DNA of 50,371 nt from an uncultured Gammaproteobacteria bacterium (GTDB lineage Bacteria > Pseudomonadota > Gammaproteobacteria > Pseudomonadales > Pseudohongiellaceae), in assembly GCA_903876785.1 (NCBI GenBank), contig CAIRBI010000286.1, forward strand, positions 1 through 50,371. Direction: 5' to 3'. A program made the translations under genes and the position numbers. Below, one piece after another: positions 27,865 to 37,690 of this stretch; position 1 is the first letter of the stretch, and the number at the start of each line of letters is the position of its first letter. Below the pieces are notes generated by a model. That model made no database searches. It was given only the letters and a program-made list of their open reading frames with translations, and was not told where the DNA came from.

Positions 27865-29178
27865 TCAGTGCCAAAGCGCGCTGATAGGCAGCGCCCACAG
27901 CCCCGGGCCAAACGAGACAATGTGCTCTCCGGTGTAGAGCACCAGCCCTGTAAAACGATGCTCTCCGGCCAAGTTGGTTTTAAACCATTCCAGATGTTTG
28001 AAGCTCTCTCTGCTTATCGCCGACGCAGCCTTTACCTCCAGCCCCAGGAGGTCGCCGTTCTCGTTTTCGACGAGAAAGTCTATCTCCCGCTTCTCTCTGT
28101 CGCGGTAATGAAACAAGGAGTAGTCCTCCTCCTGTGCATCCAGAATTGCCGCCAGTTGCGTGAAGACATACGTTTCAAGAAGCTTGCCGTACAGCTTGCC
28201 GTCCAGCCGCACCCGCTCGTGACGCCAGTTCAGGATGGACGACATCAGCCCTGAATCGGTCATCAGAATCTTGTCGCGTTTGCCCGCCCGGTCATAGTCA
28301 GTGCGGGTCCACGCGGGCACCCGCTCCACGAGATAGAGGGTTTCCAGCGCATTGATATAACTTTCGAGGGCTGGGCGCTGCAGAGCCAGATCAGCCCCGA
28401 TCTTGGCAACATCCATGTAGTTGGACGACCATGCGGCGAGTATCTCGAGCAGTGTCAGCATGCTGTCTTTGCGACGGATATTGATGATTTCCCTGAGATC
28501 TCTTTCGATCAGCGATTCCACGTAGTCCTTGTGCCATTGGCGGATTTCACGCTCGTTCTCAAAGCGCAGAGCCTCTGGGTAGCCCCCTTTGAGCGCCTGC
28601 GTGATGTAGAAATCCTGATCGAAAGCCCGCCCCTGCAGATTTTCAGGGTCTGAGCTGAAAGGGTCTGAGCTGAAATGGTTTGAGCGGAAGGCGGTAAATT
28701 CTTCGCGAAACGCGGCTTGCGGGAATTGCGGCGTGTTCCCCAGCAGTTCTCCTTGTGTGAGTGGCCGCAGTCTGAGCTTGCGCACACGGCCTGCGAGAGA
28801 TTCCGTGACGCCGGGCAGGGATTGGATATTGGCAGAGCCGGTCAGCAGGAAGCGACCGGGATTCTGGTTGTCATCCACATTGCGTTTGATGGCCTGAAGC
28901 AGAGCCGGAACCCGTTGAATCTCATCAATGATCATCAGTTCGTCGGCGTGAGCCACAAAGCCGGCAGGATCGCTCTGTGCCGCTGCCATGAGCGTAGGGT
29001 CGTCAAGGGTGCGATAAATGCTGTCAGCCCCGGCGAGACCTCTGGCCAGAGTGGTCTTGCCGCATTGGCGACACCCGGCGAGGATGAGCACGCGACGGGT
29101 ACTCAGTGCCTGCATGACTCGCTTTTCCTGCCAGCGATCATAGGGGTGTCGTGTCTTGTCGTTGTCGCCCATAGCCAA
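27865..29178 (-). CDS. AAA ATPase with DUF4143-type C-terminal domain
   Basis: P-loop LAGCRQCGKTTLARGL; ELMIIDEIQRVPALLQAIK; GSANIQSLPGVTESLAGR; C-terminal REIDFLVEN segment. Confidence 0.93.
   Translation of the reverse strand: MAMGDNDKTRHPYDRWQEKRVMQALSTRRVLILAGCRQCGKTTLARGLAGADSIYRTLDDPTLMAAAQSDPAGFVAHADELMIIDEIQRVPALLQAIKRNVDDNQNPGRFLLTGSANIQSLPGVTESLAGRVRKLRLRPLTQGELLGNTPQFPQAAFREEFTAFRSNHFSSDPFSSDPENLQGRAFDQDFYITQALKGGYPEALRFENEREIRQWHKDYVESLIERDLREIINIRRKDSMLTLLEILAAWSSNYMDVAKIGADLALQRPALESYINALETLYLVERVPAWTRTDYDRAGKRDKILMTDSGLMSSILNWRHERVRLDGKLYGKLLETYVFTQLAAILDAQEEDYSLFHYRDREKREIDFLVENENGDLLGLEVKAASAISRESFKHLEWFKTNLAGEHRFTGLVLYTGEHIVSFGPGLWALPISALWH
28646..28690. repeat. 15-bp tandem repeat, three units (two identical, one degenerate), in frame
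   Basis: GGGTCTGAGCTGAAA / GGGTCTGAGCTGAAA / TGGTTTGAGCGGAAG; encodes ...NHFSSDPFSSDP... Confidence 0.9.
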
Positions 29179-29381: not shown

Positions 29382-31661
29382 ATGCTACGCAGAAACCCTT
29401 TGAACCTTGAAATCGCCCTGATTCTGGCCGCCCTGGCGGCATCGCCGCTGCAGGCTGCGGAGGATGACACCGTCGAAGAAATCGTGGTGTGGGGACAGGA
29501 GACGGTGCAGCGCGCCGCGACGTCGCACCCCAGCAGTATGCTGACGCAGCAGGATCTGGTGAGCATCAATGTGGCGACCACCGAAGACGTGGTCAAGTTC
29601 GAGCCCAGCCTGGTGATCCGCCGCCGCTTCATCGGGGATTCCAACGGCACCATGGGCATGCGCGGCTCCAACATGTTCCAGACTTCGCGCTCGATGGTGT
29701 TTGCCGACGGCGTGCCTTTGCACTATCTGCTGCAGACGCGCTGGAACGGTGCACCGCGCTGGACCATGGTGTCTGCCAGCGAGATCGCTCAGGTCGAGGT
29801 GCTCTACGGTCCGTTCTCGGCTGAATTCAGCGGCAACTCCATGGGCGGTGTGGTGCTGATCGAGTCGGCCATTCCGCAGAAGCGCGAGTTTCACTTCGAC
29901 AGCTCGTTCTTCTCGCAGAACTTCAATGCCTACGGTTTCGATGACACCGTCAACGGCTACAAGAGCTTCTTCTCCTACGGCGACAAGATCGGCGACACCA
30001 GTCTGTACCTCTCCTATAACCGTCTGGAGAGCGAGTCCCAGCCTCAGACCTTCTATTTCGGCTCCAACACCACGGCCGCCAGCGTCACGCCCGTCAGTGG
30101 CGGCATCGTTGGCAACGACGAGTTCGCCACCTCGCGGCTGTGGTTCGGCGACACCGGCATCGTGGATACCACGACCGACAACTACAAGCTCAAGATCGGC
30201 CAGGACTTTGGTGTGTGGGAAGCGTTGCTCAACGTGGCCTATGAGGACCGTTTCACCGGCAACAACAAGCCCAACAGTTATGTGAAGAATGCCGCAGGCG
30301 GCTCGGTCTGGAGCGGCAACGTGGTGCAGAACGGCTGGAAGATCAATATGCCGGCCGCGCGGCTGGGTGTCAGCGAGTTGCAGCGTGACAGCCTGTCCGT
30401 GGGCTTGCGCGTGCGCGGCGAAGTGGCCGAGGGCGTCATCTTCGAGAGCAATCTCAACGAATTTCAGGTGCTCAACGACGAGATGCGCGCCTCGCTGAGC
30501 AACCCCGGCGACAGCGCCTACACGCGCAACGGTCAGGTTACCGAGTTTGGTGACACCGGCTGGCGCAGTGCCGAGGCCAAGCTGAGTTTCCAGCAACTGC
30601 CAGTCGAAGGTCTGGGCCTGATCGTCGGCGCGCGTCACGATGCCTACGAGCTGAACATGGATGTCTACAATTCGGCCAATTACGTGGCTGGCAGCTTCAA
30701 CGATTTCACCAGCCGCAGCGGTGGTCAGACGCAAGTCGAGGCGCTGTTCGCGCAGCTCAACTATGACATCAATGCACAGTGGGACATGGGCCTCGGCTTG
30801 CGCTGGGAGTCCTTCGAGAGCAGCAACGGCTATTTCTCCCGCGACGTGAAAGCCACGCCGCAATACGATCTGGTTGCCGTGCCCAAGGTCAGCGACAAGC
30901 AGGCCTCGCCGAAGTTCTCCGTCGGCTATCAGCCCACCGAAAACTGGCGCTTCGCCTATGCGCTGGGCAAGGCTTACCGCTTCCCGATTGTGGAGGAGCT
31001 GTTCAGTCAGTATTCCGCCTACAACGCCATCAGCGTTGCCAACCCCGAGCTGCGTCCCGAGGCTGGCGTGCACCAGAACTTCATGCTGGAGCGGCAGATC
31101 GCCAACGGGGAACTGCGCGTGAATCTGTTCCAGGAAACCGTCAAGGACGTGATCGAATCGCAGTCCGACACCTTGCCCGGTGGCATGACCGTGCGCACCT
31201 TCATCCCCTTCGACGAGATCGAGACGCGCGGTGTCGAGTTCATCGCCAACCTCGACGAGCTGCTGGTGAGCAATCTCGAGATGCGCTTCAACATGGTGTT
31301 CACCGACCCTGAAATCGTGAAGAACATTGCCGACACCCGCATCGAGGGCAATGTCTATCCACGCATGCCGGAATGGCGTGGTAATCTGCTGCTGACCTGG
31401 CACTTCAGTGACAGATGGGACGCGGGCACCAACGTGCAATATGCCAGCGACAGTTTCGGTCGCAACGACAACGCCGACCGTCAGGACGAGGTCTACGGAG
31501 CGCAGGACGGCTATACCCGCCTCGGTCTGAAGAGCACCTACAATTTCACCAATGGCGTGGCCCTCGGCCTTGGTGTCGACAACCTGACCGATGAGGTCTC
31601 TTACGTTGCCCATCCGTGGCCTGGACGTACTTACTATGCCAATGTGTCTTATGATTTCTAA
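29382..31661 (+). CDS. TonB-dependent outer membrane receptor
   Basis: DDTVEEIVVWGQ TonB-box-like segment, plug (GTMGMRGSNMFQTSRSMVFADGVP), terminal strand TYYANVSYDF. Confidence 0.93.
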   Translation: MLRRNPLNLEIALILAALAASPLQAAEDDTVEEIVVWGQETVQRAATSHPSSMLTQQDLVSINVATTEDVVKFEPSLVIRRRFIGDSNGTMGMRGSNMFQTSRSMVFADGVPLHYLLQTRWNGAPRWTMVSASEIAQVEVLYGPFSAEFSGNSMGGVVLIESAIPQKREFHFDSSFFSQNFNAYGFDDTVNGYKSFFSYGDKIGDTSLYLSYNRLESESQPQTFYFGSNTTAASVTPVSGGIVGNDEFATSRLWFGDTGIVDTTTDNYKLKIGQDFGVWEALLNVAYEDRFTGNNKPNSYVKNAAGGSVWSGNVVQNGWKINMPAARLGVSELQRDSLSVGLRVRGEVAEGVIFESNLNEFQVLNDEMRASLSNPGDSAYTRNGQVTEFGDTGWRSAEAKLSFQQLPVEGLGLIVGARHDAYELNMDVYNSANYVAGSFNDFTSRSGGQTQVEALFAQLNYDINAQWDMGLGLRWESFESSNGYFSRDVKATPQYDLVAVPKVSDKQASPKFSVGYQPTENWRFAYALGKAYRFPIVEELFSQYSAYNAISVANPELRPEAGVHQNFMLERQIANGELRVNLFQETVKDVIESQSDTLPGGMTVRTFIPFDEIETRGVEFIANLDELLVSNLEMRFNMVFTDPEIVKNIADTRIEGNVYPRMPEWRGNLLLTWHFSDRWDAGTNVQYASDSFGRNDNADRQDEVYGAQDGYTRLGLKSTYNFTNGVALGLGVDNLTDEVSYVAHPWPGRTYYANVSYDF

Positions 31662-32904
31662 ACGTATGAAGTGGCTTTTTTCTGCCGGAATGACGGTCTT
31701 GATGACCACGCTGTTGTGGGGTGTCGATGCCGCAGCGGCGGAGAACTGCCAGTCATTGCGTGAACGCTCCGCCGGGCAACAGGTGATCAGCATCCACTGT
31801 GGTGGCGCTCCCAGCGCAACAGTGGATGCTGATGGCCGCTTGTGGGCAGCGTTCGTTCAGGACAAGCACGTGTATGTGACACGCTCGGACGATAACGGCG
31901 TCACCTACACAACGCCGGTGCGCGTGAACAGCGAGCCGGAGGATACCGAGTACAACGGCGAGAACCGCCCGAAGATTCTCGTGGCGGAAGACGGCACCGT
32001 CCTGTTGTCGTGGACCACCAAAACCTCGCCGAATTTTACCGGCGAGATCCGCTTCACCCGCTCTACCGACGCGGGCAAGACCTTCGAGCCGCCCCGTACC
32101 ATGAATGACGACGGCCTGATGACCGGCCACCGCTTCGACAGTCTGTTCCTCACCGCCTCCGGCAAACTCTATCTGACCTGGATCGACAAGCGCGATCTGG
32201 ATGCCAGCGCCGCACGCGGGGAAACCTATCCTGGCGCCGCGATCTACTACACCATCTCTGACGATCTGGGCGCAAGCTTCACGCCCAACTTCCGCGTCTC
32301 CCACAACAGCTGCGAGTGTTGCCGCATCGCCATGGCGCCACACGGCGATGACGAGGTCGCCATCCTGTGGCGCCAGATCTACGACGAACACATTCGCGAT
32401 CATGCCATCGCGGTGCTCGGTGCACAGGGCGAGGTCAGTGGGCTCACGCGTGCGACGGTCGACGACTGGTTTATCGACGCCTGCCCGCACCACGGGCCGA
32501 CCATGGTGCAGGCTGCGCAGCCGGGTCAGTACCACATCAGCTGGTTCAGCGATGGCAACCTGCACAGCGGCATTCACTACGGTCGTCACGACATGGCCAC
32601 CGGGACCACGGAAAACATCATTCAGGTCGATGGCACGCCGGGTGCGGGGCATCCGTTTCTGGCCCGCGATGACAACACGCTCTATATGGTCTGGAAGGGC
32701 TTCGATGGCATGGCCTCGCAACTGCAGCTGATGCGCTCGCAGGATGATGGCGCAACCTGGAGCGCGCCGCAGACGCTGTACAACACGGAGCGGGCCAGCG
32801 ATCATCCACTGCTGGTCACGGCGCCGCACGGTGTGTTTCTGAGCTGGTCCAGCGAGGAATTCGGTTATCTGTTTACGGAGATCGGTAGTGATGAAAAGCA
32901 ATAG
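31651..32904 (+). CDS. Secreted Asp-box (BNR/sialidase-like) beta-propeller with CECC and CPHHGP motifs
   Basis: Hydrophobic signal region; Asp-box repeats (TRSDDNGVTYTTP, TRSTDAGKTFEPP, TISDDLGASFTPN, MRSQDDGATWSAP); SHNSCECCRIA; FIDACPHHGPTM. Start may be 31651 or 31666. Confidence 0.82.
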   Translation: MISKRMKWLFSAGMTVLMTTLLWGVDAAAAENCQSLRERSAGQQVISIHCGGAPSATVDADGRLWAAFVQDKHVYVTRSDDNGVTYTTPVRVNSEPEDTEYNGENRPKILVAEDGTVLLSWTTKTSPNFTGEIRFTRSTDAGKTFEPPRTMNDDGLMTGHRFDSLFLTASGKLYLTWIDKRDLDASAARGETYPGAAIYYTISDDLGASFTPNFRVSHNSCECCRIAMAPHGDDEVAILWRQIYDEHIRDHAIAVLGAQGEVSGLTRATVDDWFIDACPHHGPTMVQAAQPGQYHISWFSDGNLHSGIHYGRHDMATGTTENIIQVDGTPGAGHPFLARDDNTLYMVWKGFDGMASQLQLMRSQDDGATWSAPQTLYNTERASDHPLLVTAPHGVFLSWSSEEFGYLFTEIGSDEKQ

Positions 32905-33373
32905 AGTTATCAGTGCGACAGCCACCCTGTGTCTTGGCCTGCTCATGTCCGCAGCGGCATTGGCCGACAGCATCCAGCCACTGGGCACCGGCACCTTTAC
33001 CGAGCTCAAGGCAGGCTTCGAAGGCAAGCCTTTCGTGGTCAGCCTGTGGTCGGTCGACTGTCTGCCCTGCCGCGTGGAGCTGGAACTTTTGGGCGAACTA
33101 AAGAAAGAAGATCCGGAATTTCCATTGCTGTTGATCTCCACCGACGCCATCGAGAAGCGCGAGGAAGCAGTGTACATTCTGGAAGAGTACGGCCTCGAAA
33201 CCATACCGTCCTGGATGTTCGCCGACGCCTTCATCGAGCGCCTGCGGTTCAGCATCGACCCGACCTGGCACGGCGAACTTCCGCGCAGTTATTTCTATGC
33301 GGCCGATCACAGCTTCAAGGCTCATAGCGGCATACTGACAGAGGAGAAACTCAAGGAATTCTTTCCGCGTTAA
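32891..33373 (+). CDS. Periplasmic thioredoxin-fold (TlpA-like) protein
   Basis: Signal peptide; FVVSLWSVDCLPCRVELELLGEL CxxC motif; overlaps the preceding CDS. Confidence 0.85.
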   Translation: MKSNRVISATATLCLGLLMSAAALADSIQPLGTGTFTELKAGFEGKPFVVSLWSVDCLPCRVELELLGELKKEDPEFPLLLISTDAIEKREEAVYILEEYGLETIPSWMFADAFIERLRFSIDPTWHGELPRSYFYAADHSFKAHSGILTEEKLKEFFPR

Positions 33374-33660: not shown

Positions 33661-36291
33661 ATGTTTAGCAGAACAATTCCATCTGACATTGCAAAGCCCA
33701 CGCTTAAAGCGGGGCTGCTGCTCTGCATATCATTCGCCATGTGGTCAAATGCCATTGCGCAGACCCCGGATGCTGAGGACACTGAAGAGCCTGAGGAGAC
33801 CGAGATCCAGGAAATACTGGTGGAAGGTAAGCCGGTACGCGGCGCTATCACCGCGCTCGCCATTGACCAGGCGAAGTTTGGTACCCAGATTCAACTGATC
33901 AGTGCCGACGAAATAGCCACCGGTGGCTTCACCAACTTCGGCGAACTTTCTGCGGGCCTGATTCGCGGCGCCAACATTGGTTATTCACCTGACGAAGGCG
34001 AGTTCACCATCCGCATCGATGGCGGAACTGACCGAGACACGCTGTTGTTGCTCGACGGCGTACCGACGTTCGACCGTGGTACTCCTCTGGAGAGCCTGTG
34101 GGGCGCGACAGCGATTGATCCGCGCATGATCGAGAACGTGGAGATCTTCCGCGGTGGCCAGAGTCTCTACTTCGGCGGCAACGGTGGTCTCGGCGTGGTG
34201 AACGTGCTTTACAAGAAGCCCGAGGCCGGTGAAGAAACGAACGGGGAGATAGGCGTTTACGCTGGCGCTTTCCGCACGCGTGAAATGTACGGCAACGTCA
34301 CCGTCCCACTCGGCAAGAACTCCGATCATTCTGTGATGTTCTTCGGTCGCTCCTATGAGACGGATGCACATCAATTGTTCGACCGGGAAGCATACACGGA
34401 TATCGTGTATGACCTTGGTGGCATGCATGATTTCCCCTACAGCTACAACCTGCTTGGTGCCAAGTATCTGTGGGCAATCAACGAAGATACAGAGTTTCGT
34501 CTGGGCTATCAGCACTCCACCATCTCGTTTGACGACTCCTTTCCTCCCACCACGATTTACCAGCCGAACTGGACTGAGTTTCCCATGTTCGACGCCAAGT
34601 TCACCACCGCATTCAATAGTCGCATGACGCTGGAATCGGAAGCCTATTTCACCAATCCGCGCCTTTGGAACACGGAGCTGGATGCGCGCGTTTGCAACAT
34701 CCCGCGTGTTGAGGATCTGCCGGCCAACATCCGCTCCATCGCCACTGGCAAAGGGATCAAGGCGTTCAACACCGCAACGCAGTACGAGGCCTTTGCGGCC
34801 ACAATTCCCGGATTGCCTGTCGGTTGTGTAACAGACCCCTACGGCGCCAATCAGGCCGCTGCGACGAGCGCCAAGACCGGTTACTACGTTGATCCTGCAG
34901 GCAAGCCCTACGGCACACTCGCCAACCCGTTCCCCATCGGCGCGCCGATTGGATATGTCATCCAGAGCACCGCCGGATTCGGTAACGGACAGCCTGTAAA
35001 GGGCTTCGGTGAAGTGGATCAGGCAAAGGCCGGTTACGATGACATGGGCATCAACAATCGTCTGAAGATGGCATGGAACGACAACGTCGAGACGATTCTG
35101 GGCGTGCAGCATATCAGCTACAAGGACGGCTCCGATGCGGCCTATGGCATGAAGTCGGACGCAGTGAATTCCACCGGCGTGTATGGCGAGCTGCGCCTTA
35201 ACTCCACCGCGTTCATTGATACCAGCCTGTCGATCTCCATGCGTAATGACTTCAACGACAACTACGCGGATGAAGATGTCTGGAAGTATGGTTTCCGTCA
35301 GGAGTTGCCCGGCGGATTCTATGTGCGTTCCAACGGCGGCACTTCGTACAGTCAACCGACGCTGATCGAAGCAGGCATGGCCGGCAATCAGGTGATCAAT
35401 GACTCTCTGGAAACCCAGCACGTCGAGACCTACAGCCTGGGAACCGGGGTCAACGGTGATCTGTTCGGTGGCACCTTCAACGTAGAGCTGGGCTATTTCG
35501 ACACGGTTATCGACAACATGTTCGGCTCTTCTGCAATCGAGCGCGTCTGTGCCAACTTCCCTGGTGTACTCGCGGCGGACATCAACCCCAACATCATTGT
35601 CCCCAACTCGTTCTGTAACTACGCTCTCCAAGAGGGCTTTTCCCGCTTTGATGTGGCGAACTTCAATCTGAAGCGCGAGCAGGACATCAAGGGCTATACG
35701 CTGGATGTGGCCTTCGACTTCGAAGAGTGGCAGGCAGATTTTACCTTCACGGACATGGAGTCACTTGAGCCGAACCCGATTTATGGCCAGAGTGCTCTGC
35801 TTGACGGTTCTGGTGCAGCGCGCAGCTTCATGGTGCCCGGCTTGGCCGGAACAGAGCAGTTCAGACAATCCGGCGAGCGTGCCGAATGGTCGGCATCACT
35901 GTTGCTCAGCTATACCCCGAACGAAGATTGGGCGTTCTCCCTGAACTCCAAATTGCAGGGACCAGAGTGGGCTTATTCCGATGCACGTTCCAGCCGCCTG
36001 GTGGACGCCAGTGGCAATCGCACCAACCCCGACAACAACTTTGGCGACTACATGGTGTTGAACGGATCGGTACAGTATTTCATGGGTGATGACAATGAGC
36101 ACCGCTTCCTGCTGCGCGCCGTGAACATTCTGGACGAGGCCTACTACGAGCGCGTGGGTGGCGGCAATCAGCGCGTCTCCAAGGCCGGTGTGCGTGGCGA
36201 GCTTGGGGTCAATAACTCCGACTACTACTACTTCTACGGCTGGAATGGCAAGCCACGCTCCTTCTGGGTGCAGTACGAATATCAATTCTGA
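33661..36291 (+). CDS. TonB-dependent outer membrane receptor (large)
   Basis: EIQEILVEGKPVRG, plug (FTIRIDGGTDRDTLLLLDGVPTFDRG), terminal strand SFWVQYEYQF. Confidence 0.93.
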   Translation: MFSRTIPSDIAKPTLKAGLLLCISFAMWSNAIAQTPDAEDTEEPEETEIQEILVEGKPVRGAITALAIDQAKFGTQIQLISADEIATGGFTNFGELSAGLIRGANIGYSPDEGEFTIRIDGGTDRDTLLLLDGVPTFDRGTPLESLWGATAIDPRMIENVEIFRGGQSLYFGGNGGLGVVNVLYKKPEAGEETNGEIGVYAGAFRTREMYGNVTVPLGKNSDHSVMFFGRSYETDAHQLFDREAYTDIVYDLGGMHDFPYSYNLLGAKYLWAINEDTEFRLGYQHSTISFDDSFPPTTIYQPNWTEFPMFDAKFTTAFNSRMTLESEAYFTNPRLWNTELDARVCNIPRVEDLPANIRSIATGKGIKAFNTATQYEAFAATIPGLPVGCVTDPYGANQAAATSAKTGYYVDPAGKPYGTLANPFPIGAPIGYVIQSTAGFGNGQPVKGFGEVDQAKAGYDDMGINNRLKMAWNDNVETILGVQHISYKDGSDAAYGMKSDAVNSTGVYGELRLNSTAFIDTSLSISMRNDFNDNYADEDVWKYGFRQELPGGFYVRSNGGTSYSQPTLIEAGMAGNQVINDSLETQHVETYSLGTGVNGDLFGGTFNVELGYFDTVIDNMFGSSAIERVCANFPGVLAADINPNIIVPNSFCNYALQEGFSRFDVANFNLKREQDIKGYTLDVAFDFEEWQADFTFTDMESLEPNPIYGQSALLDGSGAARSFMVPGLAGTEQFRQSGERAEWSASLLLSYTPNEDWAFSLNSKLQGPEWAYSDARSSRLVDASGNRTNPDNNFGDYMVLNGSVQYFMGDDNEHRFLLRAVNILDEAYYERVGGGNQRVSKAGVRGELGVNNSDYYYFYGWNGKPRSFWVQYEYQF

Positions 36292-36313: not shown

Positions 36314-37690
36314 ATGCAATTGAAAGCGTTATATGTCGCTACGATTTTCGGTTTGCTGGCAAGCTGCAGCACCCTGGCTGTCGCTCAGGATCTCGGGGTG
36401 CCGACTGCCGGCCCCCTGTCTTCAGATGGCTTGGCGTTTCAGGGTGAAGAGCGCTGGTGGAAAGGCAACACGCACACCCATACCTGGTGGAGCGATGGTG
36501 ATGCGCCTCCCGAATTGATTGCCGATTGGTACAAGAAGCACGGCTACGAATTCCTGGTGTTCAGTGATCACAACATCATGCAAAGCGGTCAGAAGTGGTA
36601 TCCAATCGATGAGCCAACCCGTCCGCTTGAGCAGGTGCAGGCCGCCTACAAGAACTATGTGGACGCTTTCGGAGATGACTGGGTGGAGGAGCGCACCGTC
36701 AATGGCAAGCGCGAAGTGAAATTGAAGACGTTGTCCGAATTTCGCTCGCTGTTTGAAGTCGCTGACAATTTCATCTTCCTGGTGGGCGAGGAAATCACGG
36801 ACAGTTTTCAGCGTCATCCCATTCACATGAACGGTGTGAATCTCGTGGAGCTGGTGCCCCCGCAGGGTGGCAGCAGCATTGGGGATACGATTCAGAACAA
36901 TCTGGATGCGGTGATGCGTCAGAGTGAAGAATATCGCCAGCCGATGGTGTTCCACTTGAATCATCCGAACTTTCATTACGCGGTGGCAGCCGAGGATTTC
37001 TTTCATCTGGAACACGAGACGGGTGATGGCTTCTTCGAAATCTACAATGGCCATGCCGGCGTGGATAACCACGGCGATGATCTGCATTTGAGCTCCGAGA
37101 GAATGTGGGACATCGTGCTCTCCAAGCGTCTCGGTGAGTTCGGCATGAGCATGATGTATGGCGTCGCAGTCGATGACTCACATGAGTACACACGCTGGGG
37201 CATCGGCACGACCAATCCCGGTCGTGGCTGGATCATGGTGAAATCGAAGTGGCTGACTCCCAACAAGATCACCGAGGCGATCAAGCGTGGTGACTTCTAC
37301 AACAGCACCGGCGTGACGCTGTCGCAGCTGCACGTTGGCGACGGGCGCATTGCTGTGGAGATTGAAGCAGAGGCTGGGCTTGAGTATCGCGTCGAGTTTG
37401 TCGGCACGCTGAAGAGTGCCGATCTGACCGGTCGTCCAGAGCAGAGCGAGACTACCAAACACGACCATCGCGGTAACGAAGAGCATCTGCATCAGGTGGT
37501 GACGCGCTACAGCGATGAAGTGGGCGAGATATTGAAGACTGTGAATGGTACGAGCGCGGAGTACGTCGCGACCGGTGACGAGATTTATGTCCGCGCGCGC
37601 ATCATCTCCTCCCGCATTCAGAACAATCCCTTCGCCGAGGGCGATGTGGAGATGGCTTGGACGCAACCGCTGCAGGTACAGCAGAACTGA
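36314..37690 (+). CDS. PHP-type metallohydrolase, CehA/McbA-like, secreted
   Basis: Signal/lipoprotein-like N-terminus (GLLASCS); WWKGNTHTHTWWSDGDAPPE and FLVFSDHN metal-binding motifs. Confidence 0.85.
   Translation: MQLKALYVATIFGLLASCSTLAVAQDLGVPTAGPLSSDGLAFQGEERWWKGNTHTHTWWSDGDAPPELIADWYKKHGYEFLVFSDHNIMQSGQKWYPIDEPTRPLEQVQAAYKNYVDAFGDDWVEERTVNGKREVKLKTLSEFRSLFEVADNFIFLVGEEITDSFQRHPIHMNGVNLVELVPPQGGSSIGDTIQNNLDAVMRQSEEYRQPMVFHLNHPNFHYAVAAEDFFHLEHETGDGFFEIYNGHAGVDNHGDDLHLSSERMWDIVLSKRLGEFGMSMMYGVAVDDSHEYTRWGIGTTNPGRGWIMVKSKWLTPNKITEAIKRGDFYNSTGVTLSQLHVGDGRIAVEIEAEAGLEYRVEFVGTLKSADLTGRPEQSETTKHDHRGNEEHLHQVVTRYSDEVGEILKTVNGTSAEYVATGDEIYVRARIISSRIQNNPFAEGDVEMAWTQPLQVQQN

Follow-up and report, generated by a model that had tools for sequence, protein, structure and literature searches.

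A putative TonB-dependent copper-acquisition operon pairing an Asp-box propeller with a thioredoxin in an uncultured gammaproteobacterium

Three consecutive genes on a contig from an uncultured gammaproteobacterium of the Pseudohongiellaceae raise a question: what task could bring together a TonB-dependent receptor (TBDR), an exported Asp-box beta-propeller and a TlpA-like thioredoxin? The genes occupy positions 29382–33373 of contig CAIRBI010000286.1 (assembly GCA_903876785.1); the whole stretch of 50,371 nucleotides that was analyzed is referred to here as the window. A sequence-only reading of this DNA had suggested that a secreted propeller captures a metal or metallophore under redox control, rather than acting as a sialidase. 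Our analysis favors a copper-acquisition operon in which a periplasmic copper protein, the propeller, is kept reduced by the thioredoxin. We assign this interpretation a probability of roughly 0.6.

All three genes lie on the forward strand, and the end of each overlaps the beginning of the next, by 11 bp between receptor and propeller and by 14 bp between propeller and thioredoxin. The co-directional, overlapping layout proposed earlier was thus confirmed at its coordinates, and the proposed identities of the three products are borne out by the matches in Table 1. The open reading frame (ORF) of the propeller opens at 31591; an alternative in-frame ATG at 31666 is equally plausible and would leave a 4-bp gap after the receptor gene. 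Sec-type signal sequences are present on both the propeller and the thioredoxin. The same gene order and spacing recur in relatives whose propellers are only 33–37% identical to that of the window. Because order and spacing are kept at this divergence, and the motifs described below are invariant, the arrangement is far beyond chance.

Table 1. Genes and motifs of the operon, in window coordinates
Feature	Position	Strand	Description
TonB-dependent receptor (TBDR)	29382..31661	+	ATG 29382, 759 aa; Plug 1.4e-11, TonB_dep_Rec_b-barrel 3.2e-38 (Pfam)
Asp-box (BNR) beta-propeller	31651..32904	+	ATG 31651, 417 aa; BNR_2 1.6e-11 (Pfam); predicted periplasmic, putative copper-binding
TlpA-like thioredoxin (Trx)	32891..33373	+	ATG 32891, 160 aa; phmmer match to TlpA 1jfu, 1.7e-5; periplasmic
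CECC motif	32311..32322	+	propeller residues 221-224
CPHHGP motif	32482..32499	+	propeller residues 278-283
His160 (GHRF), propeller	32128..32130	+	His in 58/67 sequences
His295 (YHxSWF), propeller	32533..32535	+	His in 66/67 sequences
CLPC active site	33059..33070	+	thioredoxin residues 57-60

How widespread is the propeller, and which of its residues are kept? Of the 96 relatives searched, 34 had a homologue; among these were all 13 further members of the genus that the search covered. Wider searches, in which sampled genomes were probed with a profile built from 16 propeller sequences, recovered the protein from 35 of 392 genomes at the level of the order, 27 of 369 at that of the class and 9 of 299 at that of the phylum. 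Among relatives with a name, the nearest are metagenome-assembled genomes of Gammaproteobacteria, and the isolate name of one points to a lake survey. A plasmid search with the propeller of locus L164 yielded no match. At locus L150 (5846-8418, forward strand, genome G024), two tandem propeller copies stand behind a single receptor gene, the second near the contig end.

Residue conservation was counted over 67 sequences, those of the window and of 66 core homologues. Invariant in all 67 were R106, C221, C223, C224, R225, R241, R249, D250, C278, P279 and G282. Five histidines were conserved in most of them: H295 (66/67), H280 (65/67), H281 (62/67), H251 (60/67) and H160 (58/67). Of the CECC and CPHHGP motifs, whose invariance the sequence-only reading had proposed as a check, the four cysteines are thus constant among homologues and the paired histidines almost so. 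In the homologues of L050, L120 and L135, the whole ORF contains just four cysteines, which makes C221, C223, C224 and C278 the minimal set. CxCC and CP persist even in divergent homologues, whose E-values range up to 6e-24.

The Asp-box (BNR) repeats, together with the sialidase fold matches described below, would also suit an ordinary sialidase or glycan-uptake locus. However, the FRIP-type motif of sialidases ([FYW]R[IVL]P) was found in none of the 73 homologues examined for it; CxCC and CP are invariant instead, and the operons hold copper genes, not glycan genes. Although the protein is an Asp-box propeller, the absence of the FRIP motif led us to reject this explanation, which we find scarcely credible. 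The earlier preference for a function other than that of a sialidase thus stands.

A structural model was used to ask where the conserved residues might lie. The AlphaFold2 model of the propeller, made with six close sequences, had a pTM of 0.75 and a mean pLDDT of 71.5, and Foldseek matched it to sialidases and PLL-type lectins. In this model, the first strand of a blade is opened in turn by HCGG (residues 49-52), ENRP (104-107), GHRF (159-162), CECCR (221-225), CPHHGP (278-283), GHP (333-335) and SDHP (383-386). In propellers, the beginnings of these strands encircle the central axis at one face of the protein, which is also where sialidases carry their active site. Since each motif begins an innermost blade strand, we infer from strand order and topology that the cysteines and histidines cluster in one central pocket. 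The Cys/His clustering anticipated by the sequence-only reading is hence supported by the placement of every motif, with the cluster itself deduced from the model's topology.

Such a pocket could also be catalytic. The propeller might be an enzyme that reduces or degrades an imported copper chelate, or some other acidic ligand, and so sets the copper free, with the thioredoxin regenerating its catalytic thiols. The invariant Arg 106, 225, 241 and 249 and D250, beside the cysteines, resemble an anion-binding active site; the nearest folds are enzymes with their active site in the same place, and a thioredoxin partner fits a thiol catalytic cycle. On the other hand, the best-linked partners of the family (PCuAC, YcnI and CopC; see below) are binding proteins, and no family of enzymes that combines CxCC and CPHHG is known to us, which also counts against catalysis. 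We judge an enzymatic role to be unlikely.

Is the thioredoxin a genuine partner of the propeller? The protein had no Pfam domain match and did not reach the NCBIfam TlpA equivalog cut-off. It has the exported thioredoxin fold, with CxxC and cis-Pro, that defines the TlpA/CcmG group (the signal sequence being read from the N-terminus), and C57, C60, W53 and the cis-Pro site L130-P131 were invariant across 16 homologues. The thioredoxin gene is directly downstream of the propeller gene in 54 of the 66 core loci, and in a further eight the thioredoxin forms the C-terminal domain of the propeller polypeptide, so that 62/66 loci show either adjacency or fusion. The remaining four are L134, where little downstream sequence is available, L138, where the thioredoxin lies upstream of the receptor gene, and the two L150 copies at a contig end. 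Mapped onto a maximum-likelihood tree, fusion requires three changes of state, and the same number when the starred branches alone are considered: in a clade within the window's family, at L046 and at L133. The simplest reading is that propeller and thioredoxin were fused on three separate occasions, the direction of change not being proven.

These fusions bear on the location of the propeller as well. Because it is joined to a thioredoxin in eight relatives, the propeller is expected to be periplasmic and not extracellular. The earlier description of a secreted propeller therefore holds with respect to export, given the Sec-type signal sequence, and fails with respect to a location outside the cell. 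Redox-controlled handling of a metal, as then envisaged, is compatible with these findings, the genomic context favoring copper, whereas the secreted capture protein gives way to a periplasmic one.

The receptor is less constant than this pair. A large ORF was found directly upstream of the propeller in 54 of the 66 loci, and those examined were TBDRs by NCBIfam, Pfam or BLAST clustering; at L119, L120 and L129 the TBDR is partial, split or divergent. With the thioredoxin in 62/66, the predicted co-occurrence of both neighbors was observed. Receptors preceding the propeller in relatives are 59–97% identical to that of the window. The TBDRs fall into at least two BLAST clusters, so the type of receptor varies while the propeller-thioredoxin pair stays, and at L048, L170 and L171 a fused pair has no TBDR next to it. 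By these comparisons of loci, the thioredoxin is dedicated to the propeller, and the two form the core of the system, to which an exchangeable TBDR is added. TonB and/or ExbB-ExbD genes accompany the triad in about a dozen loci. A sensor kinase and a 182-aa Fis-type response regulator, resembling the RegB/RegA pair of redox control, are encoded close to the receptor gene at as many as seven loci, among them L123, L127, L128, L131, L139 and L140.

We then considered which metal the operon might serve. Locus L164, in an 8-Mb genome of another class, encodes on one strand a TBDR, the propeller, the thioredoxin, PCuAC, DUF1775 (YcnI) and CopC-CopD. In L167 and L161, DUF2946 (54.2 and 43.1 bits, respectively; cut-off 23.7) precedes the TBDR, propeller and thioredoxin, and PCuAC follows them. 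DUF2946 is the family of CruR, a leader ORF that senses copper and stands at the front of operons containing TBDRs, PCuAC, YcnI and CopC (PMC9426467); YcnI binds copper (PMC8424229). PCuAC lies no more than 2 kb from the propeller in six partly related genomes (G910, G963, G979, G824, G1050, G1007), compared with 0.06 expected from the 43 PCuAC genes in 69 genomes; given the relatedness of the six, the P-value exaggerates their independence. As a control, PepSY_TM had about 110 matches in the same 69 genomes, one of which was within 10 kb of a propeller (G057); none was near the window's operon. In the first 68 genomes, Pfam detected no DUF2946 around the triads. A motif scan identified a divergent CruR/DUF2946-like ORF, with RALVP, CxxC and a doubled RAPP, immediately upstream of the receptor gene in L122 (4739-5254, reverse strand); the Pfam model gave it no score. 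Overall, the metal-specific neighbors are overwhelmingly copper genes, and this context points to copper as the metal.

Three further loci deserve description. In L131 and L139, the thioredoxin gene is followed by genes for TonB, a Phenol_MetA_deg outer-membrane protein, a small protein (with a weak dihaem cytochrome c match in L139) and a second thioredoxin-like protein (AhpC/TSA). Downstream on the same strand, L139 has further redox proteins and then a CopA-type ATPase. In L149 (7424-15081, reverse strand), a divergent CDCC/CPVNGP propeller without a thioredoxin comes directly after a TolC-like protein, CusB (with a heavy-metal-binding domain) and CusA, suggesting a possible second role of the wider family in metal efflux.

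The Cus genes before the L149 homologue and the ATPase near L139 could be taken to mean that the system protects against excess copper, with the propeller sequestering periplasmic Cu(I) and the thioredoxin repairing copper-damaged thiols. A TonB-driven importer is unsuited to detoxification, however; copper excess switches CruR-headed operons off (PMC9426467), and operons with PCuAC and YcnI/CopD have been linked to acquisition (PMC8424229). We regard protection as very improbable.

Several observations weigh against copper acquisition by the window's own operon. Only a minority of loci, mostly those of distant relatives, have recognized copper genes next to the triad, and there are none beside it in the window or elsewhere in its genus. 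The receptor could not be placed in any known copper TBDR family, and its AlphaFold model was too poor to interpret (pLDDT 24.8). The clustering of cysteines and histidines rests on strand order in a medium-confidence model. In addition, a Stenotrophomonas TBDR accompanied by a periplasmic thioredoxin-fold protein (CAPC) is reported for manganese, under MntR control (PMC13217887).

Might the substrate, then, be another metal (manganese, zinc or iron) or haem, with the copper neighbors of distant relatives marking a switch of substrate there? Besides the manganese module and the absence of an adjoining copper gene in the window, this alternative can draw on the zinc propeller AztD (PMC6689063) and on the receptor profile, whose nearest matches in the PDB are haem, PQQ and enterobactin receptors, with no copper TBDR among them. 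The window receptor itself scored below every NCBIfam cut-off. Candidate assignments tried and rejected were an OprC-type copper receptor (TIGR01778 TonB-copper, 30.9 bits vs. a curated cut-off of 472.45), a haem receptor (in the eight receptors that matched the pattern, the stretch from the FRAP-like to the NPEL box has no His) and Fur control (the window contains no Fur box at up to 3 mismatches). The latter two results argue against haem and iron, as does, for manganese, the lack of a CQNC-type plug motif in the window receptor, in whose alignment no cysteine is invariant. Given also the preponderance of copper genes among metal-specific neighbors, a substrate other than copper seems improbable.

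How would a copper-acquisition operon of this kind work? We infer what the receptor imports, that the propeller binds copper, that the thioredoxin reduces the propeller's cysteines and where the copper goes next. The TBDR would bring a copper complex into the periplasm, where the propeller would receive the metal as Cu(I) in its central pocket, formed by C221, C223, C224 and C278 with His 160, 280, 281 and 295. The conserved Arg 106, 225, 241 and 249 perhaps bind acidic groups on the chelator; the copper taken up through CrtA is complexed by small molecules that carry carboxylates (PMC12914433), ligands for which invariant arginines would be well suited. In the oxidizing periplasm, the thioredoxin would reduce the propeller's cysteines, enabling them to hold Cu(I). 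Copper would then be passed to cuproenzyme assembly, via PCuAC where present. There are precedents for the individual steps: TlpA reduces the copper chaperone ScoI, before metallation, and COX II (PMC6696091); oxidases obtain copper by way of the TBDRs CrtA (PMC12914433) and TccA (PMC12617631); and AztD is a periplasmic propeller serving as a zinc metallochaperone (PMC6689063).

The window's genome, which is 91% complete, had no DUF2946 match and no PCuAC match. In view of the latter, the propeller-thioredoxin pair may stand in for PCuAC there. A bolder version of the proposal, which we hold tentatively and at somewhat less than even odds, is that the CxCC/CPHHG propeller represents a new class of periplasmic Cu(I) protein and the first beta-propeller copper metallochaperone, removing the copper from TonB-imported chelates, held in the reduced state by a thioredoxin solely its own and replacing PCuAC in lineages where that protein is lacking.

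The surroundings of the operon in the window include two other features. Behind the triad, at 33661-36291, is a second TonB-dependent receptor gene that overlaps an ORF for a CehA/McbA-type metallohydrolase (opening at 36158, ending at 37690). Only the closest relatives (L031, L032, L053) have this pair behind the triad, so it does not belong to the conserved system. An AAA_14/DUF4143 ATPase gene (27865-29178, reverse strand) lies between proC and the receptor gene; it is absent from that place in L031 and present in another version in L032, and so looks like a movable insertion.

Gram-negative copper acquisition, and the periplasmic route of the metal to oxidases, are poorly known (PMC12914433, PMC12617631). 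A Pseudomonadota-wide family with four invariant cysteines, a private thioredoxin and copper-operon neighbors offers a tangible candidate for one of the missing components, amenable to purification and knockout. If the proposal is right, it would extend the idea of a beta-propeller metallochaperone from zinc (AztD) to copper and would tie copper uptake to the periplasmic thiol redox state. In the open-licence literature, a scope that leaves the original pcuABCDE paper outside, we found no propeller or sialidase-like protein in copper/TonB operons. The earlier suggestion of a candidate undescribed system accordingly survives in a narrower form: the operon is conserved and apparently represents an undescribed variant of TonB-dependent copper acquisition.

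The variant shares features with several known systems. Like the propeller described here, AztD is a periplasmic beta-propeller of a metal uptake system (PMC6689063), but it has zinc, eight blades and an operon with the AztABC transporter; no AztD chain was among the PDB sequence matches of our propeller, and the window's operon has no ABC transporter. The Stenotrophomonas TBDR-pTFP manganese module likewise sets a TBDR beside a periplasmic thioredoxin-fold protein with CAPC, but has a CQNC plug motif, MntR control and no reported propeller (PMC13217887). Our thioredoxin matches TlpA, which acts on ScoI and CoxB, in sequence, periplasmic location and copper context, whereas its presumed client is a beta-propeller and not Sco/CoxB, and it is co-encoded with, sometimes fused to, that client. 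Caulobacter TccA, a TBDR needed for the aa3 oxidase (PMC12617631), resembles the role proposed for our receptor in that it probably brings copper to the periplasm for the oxidase; a propeller or thioredoxin partner is not reported for it. The Bordetella CrtA/BfrG-CrpH operon (CruR, copper TBDR, PepSY_TM; PMC12914433, PMC13038864) has a CruR leader in common with L161 and L167 and, for its copper TBDR, a dedicated partner thought to act on imported copper, although that partner is a PepSY_TM inner-membrane protein in place of the propeller and thioredoxin found here. The Bradyrhizobium copper-starvation operon pcuABCDE, as outlined in three papers, encodes the TBDR PcuB, the PCuAC-like PcuA and PcuC, the YcnI-like PcuD and the membrane protein PcuE (PMC8424229, PMC6696091, PMC12617631). 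While the window's operon lacks PCuAC, YcnI and CopCD, and a propeller and a thioredoxin are not among the components named for pcuABCDE in those papers, the two have in common a TBDR and periplasmic copper proteins (in our case, putative) within one operon, and the order of TBDR, PCuAC, YcnI and CopC-CopD in L164 is alike.

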